Assembly (NCBI GenBank): GCA_021811205.1
Contig: JAJZPK010000122.1
Location: 1-7,670, forward strand
Source of the DNA: Pseudomonadota bacterium
GTDB lineage: Bacteria > Pseudomonadota > Gammaproteobacteria > Burkholderiales > JABEVD01
Direction: 5' to 3'
Length of the DNA stretch: 7,670 nt
Both the position numbers and the translations under genes were made by a program. Within the stretch, counting starts at the first letter, position 1; each line of letters begins with the position of its first letter. The notes below the pieces were generated by a model. That model was not told the DNA's origin. It searched no databases and saw nothing but the letters and a program-made list of their open reading frames with translations. Shown here piece by piece: positions 1 to 7,670 of this stretch.

Positions 1-2037
1 GTGGTTTCCGGCCAGGCCAGAGCGGTCGTCTTCGCCACGGGAATGCGCACCGAATTCGGAAAAATCGCCCATCTCGCCCAGTCCGAGGAGCGGGGAACTT
101 CTCCCTTGCGGCGCGAGATCACCCATCTCAGCCGCATGATCGGAATGATTGCCGTCGTGATCGGCACCGTATTCTTTCTGGGCGGACAGGTGATCGGCAT
201 TCCTTTCTGGAAGGATTTCGTCTTCGCCATCGGCATCATCGTCGCCATGGTGCCCGAAGGATTGCTTCCCACGCTGACCCTTGCCCTGGTGCTCGCCACC
301 CAGCGCATGGCCGGAAAAAAGGTCCTGATCAGGCATCTGACTTCCGTCGAAGCGCTGGGCTCAACCACGGTCATCTGCACGGACAAGACGGGAACGCTCA
401 CCCAGAACAGGATGGCGGTGAAAGAGGTGTTCGTCGAAGGGAAATTTTCAAAGCCTTCCACCGACCTGCCTGCTCCTTTTCTGAAAGTGGCGAGATTCTG
501 CAACGATCTGAGGGAAGGACAAGTTTCCTTCGGGGATCCCATGGAAATCGCGCTTGCTTCGATGGCCATGGACAAGCTTTTACCCAGATCGGAAAGGCTG
601 TTCGAGATTCCTTTCGATGACGAACGAATGCGTTTGTCCACGGTGCACGATGATCCTGAAGGGCCGCAGCTTTTCTGCAAGGGGGCGCCCGAGACTGTCG
701 TGCCGTTATGCACGAGGATCCTGTGTGAAGACGGAGAAGAAGCGCTGCGTGACGCGCATCTCGAGAAAATAAGATCGGCGCAGGAAGCGATGGCCGAAAA
801 GGGGCTGCGGGTCATCGCATTGGCTCATCGTTCACTGGATGAAAACTGGAAAGCCGCTCCTCTGGAAGCCGATATGGTCTTTGCGGGTCTTGCCGGGCTG
901 GAAGATCCGCCGAGGATAGAGGTGCCTCAAGCGATCGAAAAATGCAGGAAGGCGGGCATCCGGGTCATCATGGTGACCGGAGATCATCCGGCAACGGCCC
1001 TGGCCATTGCAAGGGAGATCGGACTGATCAGGTCGGAAAACCCGAAGGTAATTTCCGGGGATGAGCTGCGCGGTCTTGGCGAGACCCAATTGCGTCTTGC
1101 ATTGGACGAGGAGGAGGTGCTTTTCGCCAGGGCCGATGCGGCGCAGAAAATGCGCATCGTCGATGCACTGAAGCGAAAGAGGCATGTCGTCGCGGTCACG
1201 GGAGACGGCGTGAACGATGCGCCTGCATTGCGATGCGCCCATATCGGCATCGCCATGGGGCTCGCCGGAACCGATGTCGCCAAGTCGGCTGCCGACATGG
1301 TGCTGCTGGACGACAATTTTGCCGCCATCGTCGATGCGGTCGAGGAGGGGCGTGCCGTCTTCAACAATATCGGCAAGTTCCTCACCTATATTCTGGCGCA
1401 CAACGTCCCCGAACTGGTTCCCTATCTCGCCTTTGCCCTGTTCAGCATCCCCTTGCCGTTGACGCCGATCCAGATCCTGTCTGTCGACATGGGGACGGAT
1501 TCCCTGACTGCGCTCGGACTAGGCGTCGAAAAGCCTGACCCGAAAGCGATGGAAAGACCGCCCCGCCCGGCATCGAGCCGCCTCTTCGGCTGGTCGCTCG
1601 CCCTGCGCGCCTATCTTTTCATCGGCCTCATCGAGGCAGTTGCCGCAATGTCCTGCTTTTTCTTCGTGCTCAAGGAATCCGGATGGCATTACGGGCAAAT
1701 GCTGTCCATGCACGATCCTGTTTACCGCGAAGCGACGACGGCCACACTGAGCGCCATCATCGCGATGCAGATCGTGAACGTCTTCCTCTGCCGAAGCAGG
1801 CGTCAATCCGTTTTTCATACGGGTCTGTCGGGCAATCCGCTGATTCTGGTCGGCGTCGCCTTCGAAATCGCGCTGCTGTTTTTCATCGACTATACGCCGC
1901 TCGGCAATGCCGTATTCGGGACGTCCCCTCTGGCCATGCATATCTGGCTTTTACTGGTCCCCTTCGCAGCAGGTCTCCTTTTCCTCGAGGAGTCGCGCAA
2001 GTGGATCGTGCGCAAGATAGGGTCTATACAGGGATAA
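1..2037 (+). CDS. P2-type cation-transporting ATPase, Na+,K+-ATPase-like (5' partial)
   Basis: Membrane pump that uses ATP, through an aspartyl-phosphate intermediate, to move cations across the cytoplasmic membrane. The 678 visible residues start in the linker between the actuator domain and M3, so M1-M2 and the TGES-bearing actuator domain lie off the window; the GTG at base 1 is an internal Val, not a start. In order: M3 (about 46-66), M4 with PEGL (85-88), phosphorylation motif DKTGTLT with Asp128, nucleotide-binding KGAPE (227-231), TGDH (326-329), the hinge TGDGVNDAP (400-408), then M5-M10 (about 457-662). M5 has N468 and E471, M6 has D496 and D500, M8 has Q590 and N593, M9 has E622; by eye these line up with the cation-site region of animal Na+,K+-ATPase alpha rather than with SERCA. 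The family and catalytic motifs are certain. The transported ion (Na+, K+, H+ or Ca2+) is not settled by sequence, and no beta-subunit gene is in view. The C-terminus ends soon after M10 in a short basic tail. Confidence 0.95.
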   Translation: MVSGQARAVVFATGMRTEFGKIAHLAQSEERGTSPLRREITHLSRMIGMIAVVIGTVFFLGGQVIGIPFWKDFVFAIGIIVAMVPEGLLPTLTLALVLATQRMAGKKVLIRHLTSVEALGSTTVICTDKTGTLTQNRMAVKEVFVEGKFSKPSTDLPAPFLKVARFCNDLREGQVSFGDPMEIALASMAMDKLLPRSERLFEIPFDDERMRLSTVHDDPEGPQLFCKGAPETVVPLCTRILCEDGEEALRDAHLEKIRSAQEAMAEKGLRVIALAHRSLDENWKAAPLEADMVFAGLAGLEDPPRIEVPQAIEKCRKAGIRVIMVTGDHPATALAIAREIGLIRSENPKVISGDELRGLGETQLRLALDEEEVLFARADAAQKMRIVDALKRKRHVVAVTGDGVNDAPALRCAHIGIAMGLAGTDVAKSAADMVLLDDNFAAIVDAVEEGRAVFNNIGKFLTYILAHNVPELVPYLAFALFSIPLPLTPIQILSVDMGTDSLTALGLGVEKPDPKAMERPPRPASSRLFGWSLALRAYLFIGLIEAVAAMSCFFFVLKESGWHYGQMLSMHDPVYREATTATLSAIIAMQIVNVFLCRSRRQSVFHTGLSGNPLILVGVAFEIALLFFIDYTPLGNAVFGTSPLAMHIWLLLVPFAAGLLFLEESRKWIVRKIGSIQG

Positions 2038-2137: not shown

Positions 2138-4918
2138 ATGAAAAGCTCGGATTCGCGGAAAGGCACGGCTTCTGCAAAGCTGCTCGGCATCGTAAAACAG
2201 CTTGCAAGCGAGGCGCGTGCAGCGAAGGTCGAGCATCCCACTCTCGACATGTCGCTCGAGCGCGATCTCGGTTTCGACAGCCTGACGCGGGTCGAATTGA
2301 TGCTGAGGGTGGAGCGCGCCTTCGATGTCCGTCTTCCCGAGGCATTGCTGGGAGAAGCGGAAACGCTCAGGGACATCCTGGACGCGCTCGGGAAACAGCA
2401 ACTGCCGGTACATGAAATCGCCGAAGTGCCGGAGGCCGAGCATGAGGTTTCAGGATTTCCGAGCGATGCGCAGACCCTGACCGAAGTTCTGGAATGGCAT
2501 GTCCTGCGCCATCGCGATCGGACCCATATCCTTTTCGAAGAATCCGGAAATACGGTGTCGATCAGCTACGGCGAGCTCGAAAGACGCGCGAAATGGGTGG
2601 CTGCCGGGTTGATCATGCGCGGAGTGCAGAAGGGCGAGGCCGTTGCGCTCATGCTTCCCACCGGTCCGGATTATTTCTTCAGCTTTTTCGGCATCCTGAT
2701 GGCAGGCTGCATTCCTGTTCCGATCTATCCGCCTTTCAGACTTTCCCAGATGGCCGACCACCTGAAACGGCATGTCGGGATATTGTCGAATGCAGGAGCC
2801 GTCATGCTGGTCACTTTCGACGAAGCGGCCAGCCTTGCGAGGTTGCTCGGGCTGCAGGTCGAATCCCTGCGGGAAGTCGTATTGCCCCGCGATCTCTCGG
2901 CCCAAGGCATCGAGGTCGTACCTGCCCTGCAAGGAGAAGACATCGCCCTGTTGCAATATACGTCGGGCAGCACAGGAAATCCGAAGGGCGTGGTGCTGGA
3001 TCACGCCAATCTGCTGGCGAACATCCGCGCCATGGGGGAAGCCGCTGAGGTCGATTCGAATGACGTTTTCGTGAGCTGGCTGCCGCTTTATCACGACATG
3101 GGGCTGATCGGCGCCTGGTTTGGAAGCCTCTATCATGCCTGCAGATATGTCGTCATGTCGCCCATTTCCTTCCTTTCCAGGCCTTCAAGGTGGTTCTCCA
3201 GCATCTCGAGGCACAGGGGAACGCTGACAGCATCCCCGAATTTCGGCTATGCGCTCTGCCTTTCCAGGATCGAAGCGGAGGACATGCAGGGAATCGATCT
3301 TTCCAGCCTGCGCATGGCTTTCAACGGAGCAGAGCCTGTCAGTCCAGAGGTGATCCGGGGGTTTTCTGAAAAATTCTCCCAGTATGGACTGAATCCGTCG
3401 GCCATTTCGCCCGTTTACGGGCTTGCGGAATCTTCCGTAGGGCTCGCCTTTCCTCCTCCGGGCAGGGGGGCGAAAGTGGATGAAGTGGATCGCGACCTGT
3501 TCGCCCGGACAGGCATGGCGATTCAGGGTGGGACGGATACGATCGCATTCGTCTCCTGCGGCCTGCCGCTTCCCGGGCACGAAATCAGGATCGTCGATGC
3601 GGCCGGACGCGAAGTTGGCGAGCGGCAGGAAGGGACGCTCGAGTTCAGGGGGCCTTCTGCGACAAGGGGCTACTTCAGGAATCCTGGGGAAACTGAAAAG
3701 CTTTTCCACGATGCATGGCTCGATTCGGGCGACTATGCCTATATTGCTGACGGCGAGATTTACGTCACGGGCCGCGCAAAAGACCTCATCATCCGGGCAG
3801 GCAGAAACATCCAGCCCTATGAGGCTGAGGAAGCGGTGGGCAATTTGCCCGGCATCAGACGGGGATGCGTTGCTGTTTTCGGGGTGCCCAAGGGCGGAAC
3901 CGAGCAGCTTGTCGTGATGGCTGAAACCAAGCAAAGGGAGGCGCAGGCTGAATTGAAGGATTTGATCAACGATGCGGTTGTCGATGTGCTCGGCGAGCCG
4001 CCTGACGATATTTTGCTCGTTCCTCCTCATACAGTCCTCAAGACTTCCAGCGGCAAGATCAGGCGGACGGCTTCTCGCGCGCTTTATCTCGGCGACTTGA
4101 AGAGGAAGCGGATGCATTATCTCGATTTCCTCGCTGAAGGGCTTCTCCCCCAGGCGAGGCGGCTTGCCAGGTCCATGGGAGGCCTTCTTTTTGCAGCCTA
4201 TGTGTGGATCGTCTTCTGGGCGATCGCCCCCTTAGCCTGGGTTTTCGCCGTGTCTTCGAAAAGCCGGGCATGGAGCTGGTCATCGAGCAGATGCTTCGCA
4301 CGGGTTTTCCTGTCTGTCTGCGGATACCGGTTGAATGTCGAGGGAATGCAAAATCTGCAAGGCGATCCCGCCATCCTCGTCGCCAACCATGCGAGCTATG
4401 CTGACGGCATCGTGATGACCGCAGCCCTGCCCGGTTCCCTTGCGCCGGACGGATTCTTTTCCTTCGTCGCCAAGAAGGAACTGCTGGATTCCTTCATCTC
4501 GAGGCTCTTTCTCAGTCATGTCGGCTCGGAATTCGTCGCGCGCGGGGAAATCGGGCCGGATATCGAACGTATCGAAGACAAGGCAAGATCGGGACGGTCC
4601 ATGATTTTTTTCCCCGAGGGGACCTTCACTAGGATACCTGGACTTGCGGAATTTCGCATGGGCGCCTTCCTTGCTTCGACCAATGCAGGCATTCCCGTCG
4701 TGCCGGTCGCCTTGCGCGGCACGCGCTCGGCCTTGCGGGACGGCGGCTGGTTACCGAGAAGAGGCGAATTGAAGGTTTGGATAGGTGCCCCCATTCCCCC
4801 GAAAGGGACGGGGTGGGAATCCGCAATCGATCTTCGGGATGAAGCCCGAAACCAAATTCTTTCCCATTGCGGCGAGCCGGGTCTATTCTTTGGATTAGGA
4901 CATAAGAAAGGCCGATAA
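2138..4918 (+). CDS. Three-domain acyl carrier protein / fatty-acyl-AMP ligase / PlsC-type acyltransferase
   Basis: A 926-residue fusion that probably activates a free fatty acid as acyl-AMP, loads it on its own carrier domain and transfers it to a lysolipid or glycerolipid at the membrane. Domain 1 (about 1-85) is an acyl carrier domain with the DSL phosphopantetheine site at Ser48. Domain 2 (about 100-660) is an adenylating enzyme: YTSGSTGNPKG (274-284), WLPLYHDMGLIG (314-325), VYGLAES (426-432), Asp532 in SGDY, a TGRAKDLII hinge (544-552) and the C-terminal catalytic Lys640 in SGKIRR. WLPLYHDMGLIG and the following region typify fatty-acyl-AMP ligases rather than acyl-CoA synthetases. A hydrophobic stretch (about 681-705) may anchor the chain. 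Domain 3 (about 730-926) is a lysophospholipid acyltransferase with HX4D (His751, Asp756) and FFPEGTFTR (824-832). All key catalytic residues are present. E. coli Aas joins comparable activities in the reverse order and without a built-in carrier domain, so the acceptor here may or may not be the same. Start: the only in-frame ATG after the upstream stop, with GGGAG before it. Confidence 0.92.
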   Translation: MKSSDSRKGTASAKLLGIVKQLASEARAAKVEHPTLDMSLERDLGFDSLTRVELMLRVERAFDVRLPEALLGEAETLRDILDALGKQQLPVHEIAEVPEAEHEVSGFPSDAQTLTEVLEWHVLRHRDRTHILFEESGNTVSISYGELERRAKWVAAGLIMRGVQKGEAVALMLPTGPDYFFSFFGILMAGCIPVPIYPPFRLSQMADHLKRHVGILSNAGAVMLVTFDEAASLARLLGLQVESLREVVLPRDLSAQGIEVVPALQGEDIALLQYTSGSTGNPKGVVLDHANLLANIRAMGEAAEVDSNDVFVSWLPLYHDMGLIGAWFGSLYHACRYVVMSPISFLSRPSRWFSSISRHRGTLTASPNFGYALCLSRIEAEDMQGIDLSSLRMAFNGAEPVSPEVIRGFSEKFSQYGLNPSAISPVYGLAESSVGLAFPPPGRGAKVDEVDRDLFARTGMAIQGGTDTIAFVSCGLPLPGHEIRIVDAAGREVGERQEGTLEFRGPSATRGYFRNPGETEKLFHDAWLDSGDYAYIADGEIYVTGRAKDLIIRAGRNIQPYEAEEAVGNLPGIRRGCVAVFGVPKGGTEQLVVMAETKQREAQAELKDLINDAVVDVLGEPPDDILLVPPHTVLKTSSGKIRRTASRALYLGDLKRKRMHYLDFLAEGLLPQARRLARSMGGLLFAAYVWIVFWAIAPLAWVFAVSSKSRAWSWSSSRCFARVFLSVCGYRLNVEGMQNLQGDPAILVANHASYADGIVMTAALPGSLAPDGFFSFVAKKELLDSFISRLFLSHVGSEFVARGEIGPDIERIEDKARSGRSMIFFPEGTFTRIPGLAEFRMGAFLASTNAGIPVVPVALRGTRSALRDGGWLPRRGELKVWIGAPIPPKGTGWESAIDLRDEARNQILSHCGEPGLFFGLGHKKGR
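4904..4911 (+). promoter_or_regulatory. Ribosome binding site of the Lon-like protease, inside the upstream gene
   Basis: AAGAAAGG lies 6 bases before the ATG at 4918, within the last codons of the preceding gene. With the TAATG stop/start overlap this suggests translational coupling and supports the chosen start. Confidence 0.65.
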
Positions 4919-7308
4919 TGACCTCGCCGCTCCACCCCTGCAAATTGCACACGGCATGCGATCCCGATGCTTTCGATTTCAAAACGACAGATGGTCTCGA
5001 TGAATTGGGCGAATTCATCGGCCAGCCGCGTGCGCTTTCCGCAATCAGATTCGGCGCGGGCATCGGGCGTGAAGGCTACAATCTGTTCGTGCTCGGGCCG
5101 CCTGGACTGGGCAAGCGCAGCATGGTCACGCAGTATCTCGAAGGAAAGGCGAAAACGGAGCCGGAGTCTTTCGACTGGTGTTATGTCAATAATTTTTCGG
5201 AGCCGCACAAGCCGATCGCCTTGAAGCTTCAGAACGGAATGGGCGCCAAGCTTGCAGCCGATATGGCGCATCTCGTGGAAGAGCTGCATGTCGCGATTCC
5301 GGCCGCCCTGGAAAGCGATGAATACAGGGCCAAGCTCGAGGCGCTCCAGGAAGAACTCGGCAGACGCCAGGAGGACGCTTTCGACGACCTCGGAAAGCGC
5401 GCCGAAGAAGAGGGTGTGGCGCTGCTCAGGACACCCGAGGGATTCACATTCGCGCCCATGGTCAACCATGTCGTGATTTCCCCTGCCGATTACGAGAAGC
5501 TTCCTCAGGAGAAGCAGGAAAGCTTCGGGAAGGCGATTTCAACCTTCCAGGAGGCATTGCAGAAAATCATCCGCCTGATCCCCAAATGGATGAAGGAGAA
5601 CAGGGAAAAAGTCAGGGCGCTCTACAGGGAAACAACCAAGGTTGCGGTGCTTCACCTGATCGACGAGGTGAGAGCTTCCTACTCGGACAGTGCAGTGCTT
5701 GCCTATCTCGATGCGGTGGAGCGGGATGTCGTCGAAAACGCAAAGGACTTCCTGAAGGGGGAGGACAAGGCGTCAGCGCTCCTGGGGCTCGGCGAGCGGC
5801 CGTCTCTGGAGCGCTATCAGGTGAACGTGCTGGGAAACCATTATGAATCGGCCGGGGCACCCATCCTGTTCGAGGAAAACCCATCCTACGGCAATCTTGT
5901 CGGCAGGGTAGAGCATGTTTCCCAGTTGGGCGCGCTCGTCACCAATTTCACGCTGATCAAGGCGGGTGCGCTGCACCGGGCGAACGGCGGTTATCTGCTG
6001 CTCGATGCGCGCAAGGTGCTGATGCAGCCTTATGCCTGGGAAGGGCTGAAACGTGCGCTGGCGTCAAACGAAATCAGAATTGAATCCCTGGGGCAGGCCC
6101 TGAGCCTCGTCAGCACCGTGTCTCTGGAGCCTGCGCCCATTCCGCTCAATGTCAAGGTTGTCCTGTTCGGCGAACGCCTGCTCTATTACATGCTCATGGA
6201 GTACGATCCGGAGTTCGGCAAGCTGTTCAAGATTCCAGCAGATTTCGAAGATCAGATGGAAAGGAGCGACGAGAATGTCCTGCTTTATGCGCGTCTGATC
6301 GCGACCCTGGCCAGGAAGGAAGGCATGCTGCCTTTCGACAGGCAAGCCGTTGCACGTGCGATCGAATATGCGTCACGCCTTGCATCGGACTCGGAAAGGC
6401 TGACGACGCATATCAAGGCGCTTGCCGATCTCTTGCGCGAAGCCGATTTTCAGGCGAGACAGGCAAGCGGGGAAATCGTCGGGCTGAACGATATCGAGGA
6501 GGCTGTTAGCGCGCGGATGGCGCGCTCGGACAGGCTGAAGCGCCGGCTCCATGAGGAAATATTGCGAGGCACGATCATGATCGATACGGAAGGCGCCGTA
6601 GTGGGGCAGGTGAATGGGCTTTCGGTGATCCAGCTTGCCGACTATGCTTTTTCGATACCGACAAGAATCACGGCGACGGTGAGGGTGGGTGATGGGGAAC
6701 TCGTCAACATCGAGCGGGAAGCCGAATTGAGCGGCGCCATCCATTCCAAAGGGGTGCTGATCCTGTCCTCGTTTCTCGCTTCGCGCTATGCACACGACCG
6801 TCCGCTTTCCCTTTCGGCGAGCCTCGCCTTCGAGCAATCCTACGGGATGATCGAAGGCGACAGCGCATCCTTGGCCGAGCTTTGCGCGCTGGTTTCGAAG
6901 CTGGCAGACGCCCCAATTCTGCAGGCCATGGCAGTGACGGGATCGGTGAATCAGTTCGGACAGGTGCAAGCCATCGGCGGCGTCAACGAGAAAATCGAAG
7001 GTTTTTTCGACGTCTGTGCAGGAAGGGGGCTCAGCGGAGCGCAGGGCGTCGTCATTCCAGAGGCCAACGTGAAGCATTTGATGCTGAAAAAGGAAGTGGT
7101 CGAGGCGGCTCGCGCGGGAAAATTCAGCATCTATGCAGTGAGCCATTTCGACGAGGCGATCAGCATTCTGACGGGGCTCGAATCCGGCGCGCTTGACACG
7201 ATGGGCCGATTCCCCGCCGGCAGCATCAACGGCAATGCGCTGGCCCGCCTGTCAAGATTCTCGGAGATCAGGCGAACCTTCTCTCAGAAGAAAAACAGAT
7301 CATCTTGA
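4918..7308 (+). CDS. Lon-like (S16 family) serine protease with AAA_32-type ATPase region
   Basis: A 796-residue cytoplasmic protease predicted to cut misfolded or specific proteins with a Ser-Lys dyad. The N-terminal segment, with an IGQ motif at 34-36, leads into a P-loop GPPGLGKRS (60-68, Lys66). A helical, charged, possibly coiled-coil region follows (about 120-170 and on), then the family block GAPILFEENPSYGNLVGR (313-330) and the Walker B-like HRANGGYLLLDA (353-364, Asp363). A helical lid (about 450-540) precedes the protease domain (about 552-770), which has catalytic Ser649 in GDSASL and Lys692 in GGVNEKIEGF. The 43-residue Ser-Lys spacing equals that of E. coli Lon (Ser679/Lys722). 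Two oddities: the P-loop has Arg where Ser/Thr normally follows the Lys, and Walker B has Ala where the catalytic Glu normally follows the Asp, so ATP hydrolysis may be weak or absent. The classical Lon N-terminal substrate domain is missing. Length and layout fit the AAA_32 branch, which resembles LonB/LonC-type enzymes rather than LonA. It is translationally coupled to the lipid enzyme (TAATG) and ends in a basic, Ser-rich tail. Confidence 0.93.
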   Translation: MTSPLHPCKLHTACDPDAFDFKTTDGLDELGEFIGQPRALSAIRFGAGIGREGYNLFVLGPPGLGKRSMVTQYLEGKAKTEPESFDWCYVNNFSEPHKPIALKLQNGMGAKLAADMAHLVEELHVAIPAALESDEYRAKLEALQEELGRRQEDAFDDLGKRAEEEGVALLRTPEGFTFAPMVNHVVISPADYEKLPQEKQESFGKAISTFQEALQKIIRLIPKWMKENREKVRALYRETTKVAVLHLIDEVRASYSDSAVLAYLDAVERDVVENAKDFLKGEDKASALLGLGERPSLERYQVNVLGNHYESAGAPILFEENPSYGNLVGRVEHVSQLGALVTNFTLIKAGALHRANGGYLLLDARKVLMQPYAWEGLKRALASNEIRIESLGQALSLVSTVSLEPAPIPLNVKVVLFGERLLYYMLMEYDPEFGKLFKIPADFEDQMERSDENVLLYARLIATLARKEGMLPFDRQAVARAIEYASRLASDSERLTTHIKALADLLREADFQARQASGEIVGLNDIEEAVSARMARSDRLKRRLHEEILRGTIMIDTEGAVVGQVNGLSVIQLADYAFSIPTRITATVRVGDGELVNIEREAELSGAIHSKGVLILSSFLASRYAHDRPLSLSASLAFEQSYGMIEGDSASLAELCALVSKLADAPILQAMAVTGSVNQFGQVQAIGGVNEKIEGFFDVCAGRGLSGAQGVVIPEANVKHLMLKKEVVEAARAGKFSIYAVSHFDEAISILTGLESGALDTMGRFPAGSINGNALARLSRFSEIRRTFSQKKNRSS

Positions 7309-7670
7309 TATGGGTTCGACCTTCCAGATGTCTTCTGCGTACTGGTCTATGGTTCGATCGCTCGAGAATTTTCCCATCTTCGCGATATTGAGGATGGCCT
7401 TTCTCGACCAGGCCTCCCTGTCCCGGTAGGCTTCGTCCACCTTTTCCTGACAGCGGATGTAGGCGGGATAATCCGCGCTCAGCCGGTAATGGTCGCCCTG
7501 GGTGAGCGCGCTGACGACAGGCAGGTAGCAATACGGATCCGTCGGGGAGAAGTAACCCGAACCGATCATGTCGAGCGCTTCCTGCATTTCCGGATGAATC
7601 TCGTGGGGCTTGGAGTAGCTTGCGGCGACTTCCTCTGCAGTGAGCCCGAAGATGAAAATGTTGTCTTCGC
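7300..7670 (-). CDS. glgP: Glycogen/starch phosphorylase, C-terminal part (5' end off window)
   Basis: Glycogen phosphorylase releases glucose-1-phosphate from the non-reducing ends of alpha-1,4-glucan, using pyridoxal phosphate. Only the last ~122 codons are here, reading from 7668 down to the TGA at 7302-7300; the frame stays open to the window edge, so the ATG at 7587-7585 is internal. Family landmarks are EDNIFIFGLTAEEV at the edge, the YPAYIRCQEKVDEAYRD stretch, WSRKAILNIAKMGKFSSDR, and the closing TIDQYAEDIW typical of the C-terminus of bacterial and eukaryotic phosphorylases. The pyridoxal-phosphate lysine and the active site lie outside the window, so activity cannot be judged, and glgP versus malP cannot be told apart from this part. 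It is convergent with the protease gene and shares 9 bp with it. No terminator hairpin is seen downstream of its stop. Confidence 0.93.
   Translation of the reverse strand, partial: EDNIFIFGLTAEEVAASYSKPHEIHPEMQEALDMIGSGYFSPTDPYCYLPVVSALTQGDHYRLSADYPAYIRCQEKVDEAYRDREAWSRKAILNIAKMGKFSSDRTIDQYAEDIWKVEPISR

Follow-up and report, generated by a model that had tools for sequence, protein, structure and literature searches.

In the 7,670-nucleotide stretch of contig JAJZPK010000122.1 analysed here (the window), one gene encodes a protein that joins an acyl carrier domain, a fatty-acyl-AMP ligase (FAAL) domain and a PlsC-type acyltransferase domain in a single chain. With a probability of roughly 0.6, this fusion protein is a self-loading acyltransferase which converts a fatty acid to acyl-AMP, transfers it to its own carrier and from there to a lysolipid without coenzyme A (CoA), serving the salvage or remodelling of membrane lipid. 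The FAAL domain would form acyl-AMP from ATP and a free fatty acid, CoA being presumably excluded from its usual pocket, and Ser48 of the same chain would take over the acyl group on its phosphopantetheine arm. Loaded in this way, the carrier would serve as donor for the C-terminal PlsC-type domain, which at the membrane would esterify a lysolipid with the acyl chain; lysophosphatidic acid or some other lysophospholipid is the most likely acceptor. Free fatty acid could thus be used to salvage or remodel membrane lipid, with neither acyl-CoA nor the acyl carrier protein (ACP) of fatty acid synthase taking part. The chemistry of each single step follows from its enzyme family, whereas phosphopantetheinylation, intramolecular transfer, the acceptor and the physiological role are inferred. 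An earlier sequence-only reading had proposed a self-contained fatty-acid-to-phospholipid machine, of which the FAAL type, the conserved carrier and the intact PlsC-type acyltransferase hold, while a lysophospholipid acceptor, the passage of the acyl group from Ser48 to the acyltransferase and a bypass of CoA and the main ACP in vivo stay conjectural.

Domains and active sites of the fusion protein

The architecture, the intact motifs, the folds, the family-wide conservation and the co-inheritance of the three parts are established by the analysis. The open reading frame and a Pfam scan agree with the single frame, coordinates and three domains given by the sequence-only reading, and the domain searches it had proposed recover PP-binding (E 2e-9, 38.0 bits against a cut-off of 20.8), AMP-binding (residues 118-513, E 7e-74) and Acyltransferase (E 1e-20) in this one frame (Table 1). 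A direct residue check places Ser48, Lys640 and His751 where it had put them.

The first domain is a PP-binding domain with the phosphopantetheine serine and resembles ACPs of the fatty-acid-synthase type in sequence comparison. An alignment of 198 sequences, gathered by similarity to the whole protein and including near-duplicates, has Ser48 in 197; the remaining sequence has a gap at that site. Together with the PF00550 score this conservation bears out the previously claimed DSL carrier site.

The middle domain has the adenylation motifs and the fold of the ANL superfamily and is nearest to FAALs: the ten best solved relatives by sequence and the top 25 rows of the fold comparison are all FAALs. 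Its motifs, read directly, are complete up to Lys640, as had been claimed, and this lysine is kept in 198/198 family sequences. Marks that block the CoA pocket of FAALs are a Trp, a Met, a Phe and a FAAL-specific helix, according to PMC8460268. In the alignment, W314, P316, M321, the helix 342-348 and F369 correspond to W224, P226, M231, T252-R258 and F279 of EcFAAL, so that the blocked pocket is recognised by sequence alone; W314, P316 and F369 are each found in 198/198 and M321 in 196/198 sequences of the family. The stretch with the FAAL-specific insertion is 42-51 residues long across the family, and in the fusion protein its alignment to 3pbk needs a gap of three residues. These sequence features favour a FAAL over an acyl-CoA ligase. 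The best NCBIfam model for the ligase is the fatty acyl-AMP ligase PRK09192 (415.1 bits, below its cut-off of 600). The NCBIfam models for fatty acyl-AMP ligases are narrow and describe subfamilies, so that the missed cut-off argues against that subfamily but leaves the assignment to the FAAL class untouched.

Typical bacterial FAALs serve polyketide synthases (PKS) and nonribosomal peptide synthetases (NRPS) (PMC8460268), and the nearest FAALs outside the family sit in frames of 553 to 4,411 residues. The protein might accordingly be a loading module of a polyketide or lipopeptide pathway, its acyltransferase acting as a release step only, but this is very improbable: no PKS or NRPS appears among the 25 listed of the 129 Pfam families found for 129 immediate neighbours of 100-900 residues (131 less two of locus L002), a tally in which large synthases would be hidden because neighbours above 900 residues were left out, and only part of the recurring neighbour clusters was identified.

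The third domain belongs to the PlsC/LPLAT acyltransferase superfamily by its HX4D and FPEGT motifs and its fold. The HX4D and FFPEGT motifs reported earlier were read directly, the PlsC fold was recognised by modelling, and H751, D756 and E827 are each kept in 198/198 sequences. Because the whole-protein fold comparison (VIA-align) spanned residues 107-654 only, the acyltransferase domain was modelled alone; its residues 677-913 align to residues 1-240 of the Thermotoga maritima PlsC (5kym), which matches the domain also by sequence. Both share the whole fold including the N-terminal helices as well as HX4D and FPEGT, whereas the Thermotoga protein stands alone and the domain described here follows a FAAL and misses the subfamily cut-off. 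The hydrophobic segment of the sequence-only reading is real as to its hydrophobicity (strongest windows at residues 675-709) but is no separate segment: in the model, the hydrophobic helices are part of the acyltransferase's own PlsC-type domain.

The self-loading mechanism may also act on an acceptor that is not a glycerophospholipid, such as a lyso-aminolipid resembling ornithine lipid or another hydroxylated lipid, which would yield a special membrane lipid. Proteins with PF01553 include OlsA-type acyltransferases (PMC11631085), the C-terminal domain matches two lyso-ornithine lipid acyltransferase (OlsA) models, and its score with the phosphatidate-type model stays under the cut-off. However, the OlsA scores (41.9 and 37.6 bits) lie far below the cut-offs of 300 bits and also below that of the 1-acylglycerol-3-phosphate acyltransferase model, and the recurring neighbours listed include no conspicuous enzyme for the first step of aminolipid synthesis, so that this acceptor appears unlikely.

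Table 1 Features of the fusion gene and its surroundings in the window
Feature	Positions	Strand	Basis
P-type cation ATPase, cut at the left end of the window	1..2037	+	profile matches
Fusion gene, three-domain protein (carrier - FAAL - PlsC-type acyltransferase)	2138..4918	+	926 aa, ATG start
Acyl carrier domain, residues 14-86	2177..2395	+	PF00550 at 29-84
Ser48 codon, within GFDSL	2279-2281	+	DSL at residues 47-49
FAAL domain, residues 108-654	2459..4099	+	adenylation motifs
P-loop YTSGSTGNPKG, residue 274	2957-2989	+	read directly
CoA-blocking FAAL features W314, P316, M321, FAAL-specific helix 342-348, F369	3077..3244	+	alignment to EcFAAL
Stretch with FAAL-specific insertion, between E431 and C474	3428..3559	+	alignment to 3pbk, 3-residue gap
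LDSGDY, residue 528		+	read directly
GRAKDLII, residue 545		+	read directly
Lys640 codon, in SSGKIRR (residue 637)	4055-4057	+	read directly
Long helices 661-706 and 710-727, N-terminal part of the PlsC-type domain	4118..4318	+	predicted model
Acyltransferase catalytic domain, residues 731-859	4328..4714	+	PF01553
His751 codon	4388-4390	+	HASYAD 751-756 (HX4D)
Asp756 codon	4403-4405	+	HX4D
FFPEGT, residue 824	4607-4624	+	read directly
LonB-like ATP-dependent protease	4918..7308	+	profile matches
Glycogen phosphorylase, C-terminal part, convergent	7303..7668	-	profile matches

Distribution and inheritance of the family

The same three Pfam domains occur in 119/120 among the homologues listed (7996 scored), in line with the earlier guess that homologues exist in databases. 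The survey of architectures across genomes which had also been suggested finds relatives of the fusion in 65/369 genomes or 51/272 genera of the window's class (E <= 1e-150, with up to two scored candidates in each genome); judging from the named relatives, this class is probably Gammaproteobacteria in the sense of GTDB. The match spans nearly the whole protein in 66 of the 68 places. Among nearer relatives, 12/60 genomes have a match with E <= 1e-100; one of these matches covers residues 28-651 only, and another contains an in-frame stop. A phylum-wide draw contains family members in 5/299 genomes (at least 767 bits, one partial), the remaining matches reaching at most 340 bits and being restricted to the FAAL part. 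Furthermore, 5/247 genomes match in the phylum of locus L003, a Desulfobulbaceae metagenome-assembled genome that is itself one of the five. As three-domain relatives are widespread and the active-site residues nearly invariant over the 198 sequences, the fusion is not due to chance.

Hosts among the matches listed are Nitrosospira, Gallionella, Ferrigenium and Ferrovum as well as Methylococcaceae, Thiorhodococcus, Imhoffiella, Thiobaca and Marichromatium. Several are members of autotrophic, methanotrophic or purple sulfur bacterial groups, in which, to our knowledge, fatty-acid salvage has been little studied.

The pairwise distances of the three domains (108 sequences) correlate with 0.83-0.94, compared with permutation maxima below 0.19; shared organismal descent contributes to this correlation. 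In a tree that includes the first 60 of the fused FAAL domains taken from loci, these group in a single clade (support 0.94), and none of ten other FAALs nor Aas of Escherichia coli falls inside. The simplest reading is a single fusion, afterwards retained with all three active sites.

Genomic context

The ATG of the LonB-like protease gene overlaps the TAA stop of the fusion gene by one base (TAATG), so that both may be co-transcribed. The LonB-like gene is likewise next and on the same strand in loci L001 and L126, and lies two genes off on the other strand in L079. Only the window, L001 and L003 have a close homologue of the P-type ATPase no more than three genes away from the fusion gene. 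The gap between ATPase and fusion gene comprises 100 bases (2038-2137) in the window, and in L001, an 88% relative, their frames share 4 bases. A fixed operon is absent outside the close relatives: any neighbour cluster within six genes recurs in at most 6/78 loci, seven of 85 loci (L008, L011, L077, L078, L099, L100, L130) being left out since the simple gene caller gave no focal frame.

Within two genes of the fusion gene (278 genes, 75 loci, the near-duplicates L001 and L002 being dropped before the comparison with controls), 5 loci contain a long-chain acyl-CoA synthetase and 4 (L013, L074, L088, L102) an SPFH/NfeD pair. L013 (5691-12664) has NfeD, a slipin-like SPFH protein, the fusion and an acyl-CoA synthetase all on one strand. 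None of the nine query neighbour families, among them the synthetase and the SPFH/NfeD proteins, occurs among 765 genes in 40 control regions drawn from 24 of the same genomes; because the nine families were chosen post hoc for recurring, this enrichment is suggestive only. By eye, the next gene in the Thiorhodococcus loci L006 (10875-11963) and L012 (3078-4166) resembles the radical-SAM protein of the AmmeMemoRadiSam system, with a Memo-like gene slightly downstream.

Nearby genes for a P-type ATPase, a LonB protease and universal stress proteins prompted the idea of a low-oxygen or stress regulon. An FNR/Anr-like box (at most one mismatch) precedes 6/77 focal and 19/701 other genes; as the gene starts are approximate and the effect is small, such a regulon is not claimed. 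The close relatives L001, L002, L007 and L126 have glycogen phosphorylase at most two genes away, another phosphorylase cluster occurs at that distance in L072, and the first residues of two neighbours in L031 resemble glycogen synthase and glucokinase by eye. A link to glycogen was dropped, being backed by no count against background.

Known relatives and significance

The Aas protein of E. coli (2-acylglycerophosphoethanolamine acyltransferase/acyl-ACP synthetase) likewise combines adenylating and acyltransferase activities in one chain, and it perhaps performs the same overall job as the fusion protein. Aas is not known to have a carrier of its own. Its domain order is opposite, as stated in the sequence-only reading and confirmed by the Pfam order and by the positions of the matches in Aas (acyltransferase at 14-139, ligase at 363-624); the Aas models PRK08633 and PRK08043 remain far below their cut-offs. 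One could regard the fusion protein as an Aas-like enzyme in other order, with an acyltransferase fed mainly by the acyl-ACP of the cell and a fused carrier that is a docking or regulatory piece. This is rather improbable: Aas unites the same two activities according to its annotation, and both domains match it weakly (28% identity over 306 residues for the ligase and over 134 for the acyltransferase), but the middle domain is of the FAAL type and the near-invariance of Ser48 exceeds what a docking role needs.

Several observations weigh against the self-loading acyltransferase. In one homologue (P0103) among the 120 listed, the precomputed domains do not include a carrier. The predicted whole-protein structure has a pTM of 0.65 and says little on the relative placement of the domains. 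Among the best 25 of 116 NCBIfam models listed none reaches its cut-off; a long-chain-fatty-acid--CoA ligase model (412.2 bits, cut-off 572) scores close to the FAAL model, and the 1-acylglycerol-3-phosphate acyltransferase model TIGR00530 gives 69.3 bits against a cut-off of 102.95. The family is patchy even in the window's class, where 6/68 copies carry one in-frame stop (G336, G237, G326, G215, G265, G206) and may therefore partly be decaying genes or assembly errors. No biochemical or functional study of a FAAL-acyltransferase fusion was found in the literature searched, whose scope excluded subscription journals and supplements. Finally, an E. coli Aas query (E <= 1e-80; matches include fragments and frames near 1,160 residues) has matches in 19/65 genomes with and 19/65 without the fusion, so that the fusion fills no simple Aas vacancy.

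Replacement of Aas is thereby ruled out as a simple reading. The 65 genomes with the fusion are all positives of the class survey, and those without were drawn at random from 301 taken as its remainder, all of the same class and with two scored candidates each. Loss of fatty-acid oxidation in the hosts was considered as well and ruled out, as the N-domain of acyl-CoA dehydrogenase (PF02771) occurs in 56/65 genomes with the fusion (49/65 without).

Other FAALs, namely EcFAAL (3PBK), those of Legionella (3KXW/3LNV) and that of the Synechococcus olefin synthase (7R7E), have the same fold, motifs, CoA-blocking residues and insertion and a carrier protein as partner. However, those FAALs feed PKS/NRPS or separate ACPs, whereas the fusion protein possesses an N-terminal carrier and a trailing PlsC-type domain. 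HapA and NocH are FAAL-ACP didomain proteins of PKS pathways and share the FAAL fused to a carrier; no lipid acyltransferase is named in them in the relevant passages of PMC11837247. One sentence in the Conclusions of an eLife article of 2021 (PMC8460268) mentions a few bacterial FAAL-like domains fused with lysophospholipid acyltransferases, function not given, and reads such fusions as recruitment for PKS/NRPS-independent functions. They are apparently of the same kind, although sequence, carrier domain, distribution and function are all missing from the relevant text of that article. The earlier statement that no well-characterised enzyme has this order thus agrees with the literature searched as to function, but the kind of fusion had already been named. 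The family is a real, widespread and apparently uncharacterised variant of known parts, with an architecture that is not new but mentioned once in print.

There is about an even chance that the family represents a one-protein, carrier-tethered salvage route of single origin, uncharacterised so far and independent of CoA, the fatty-acid-synthase carrier and Aas, which is spread over nearly a fifth of the genera sampled in the class and sparse in other proteobacteria and the Desulfobulbaceae phylum. Known bacterial routes for the reuse of free fatty acids run via acyl-CoA, acyl phosphate or soluble ACP. If the proposed mechanism is true, a chain equipped with its own carrier would add a closed route to these, and a FAAL would work in membrane metabolism rather than in natural-product assembly. 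The family would then allow the remark in PMC8460268 on FAALs recruited outside PKS/NRPS to be put to the test.
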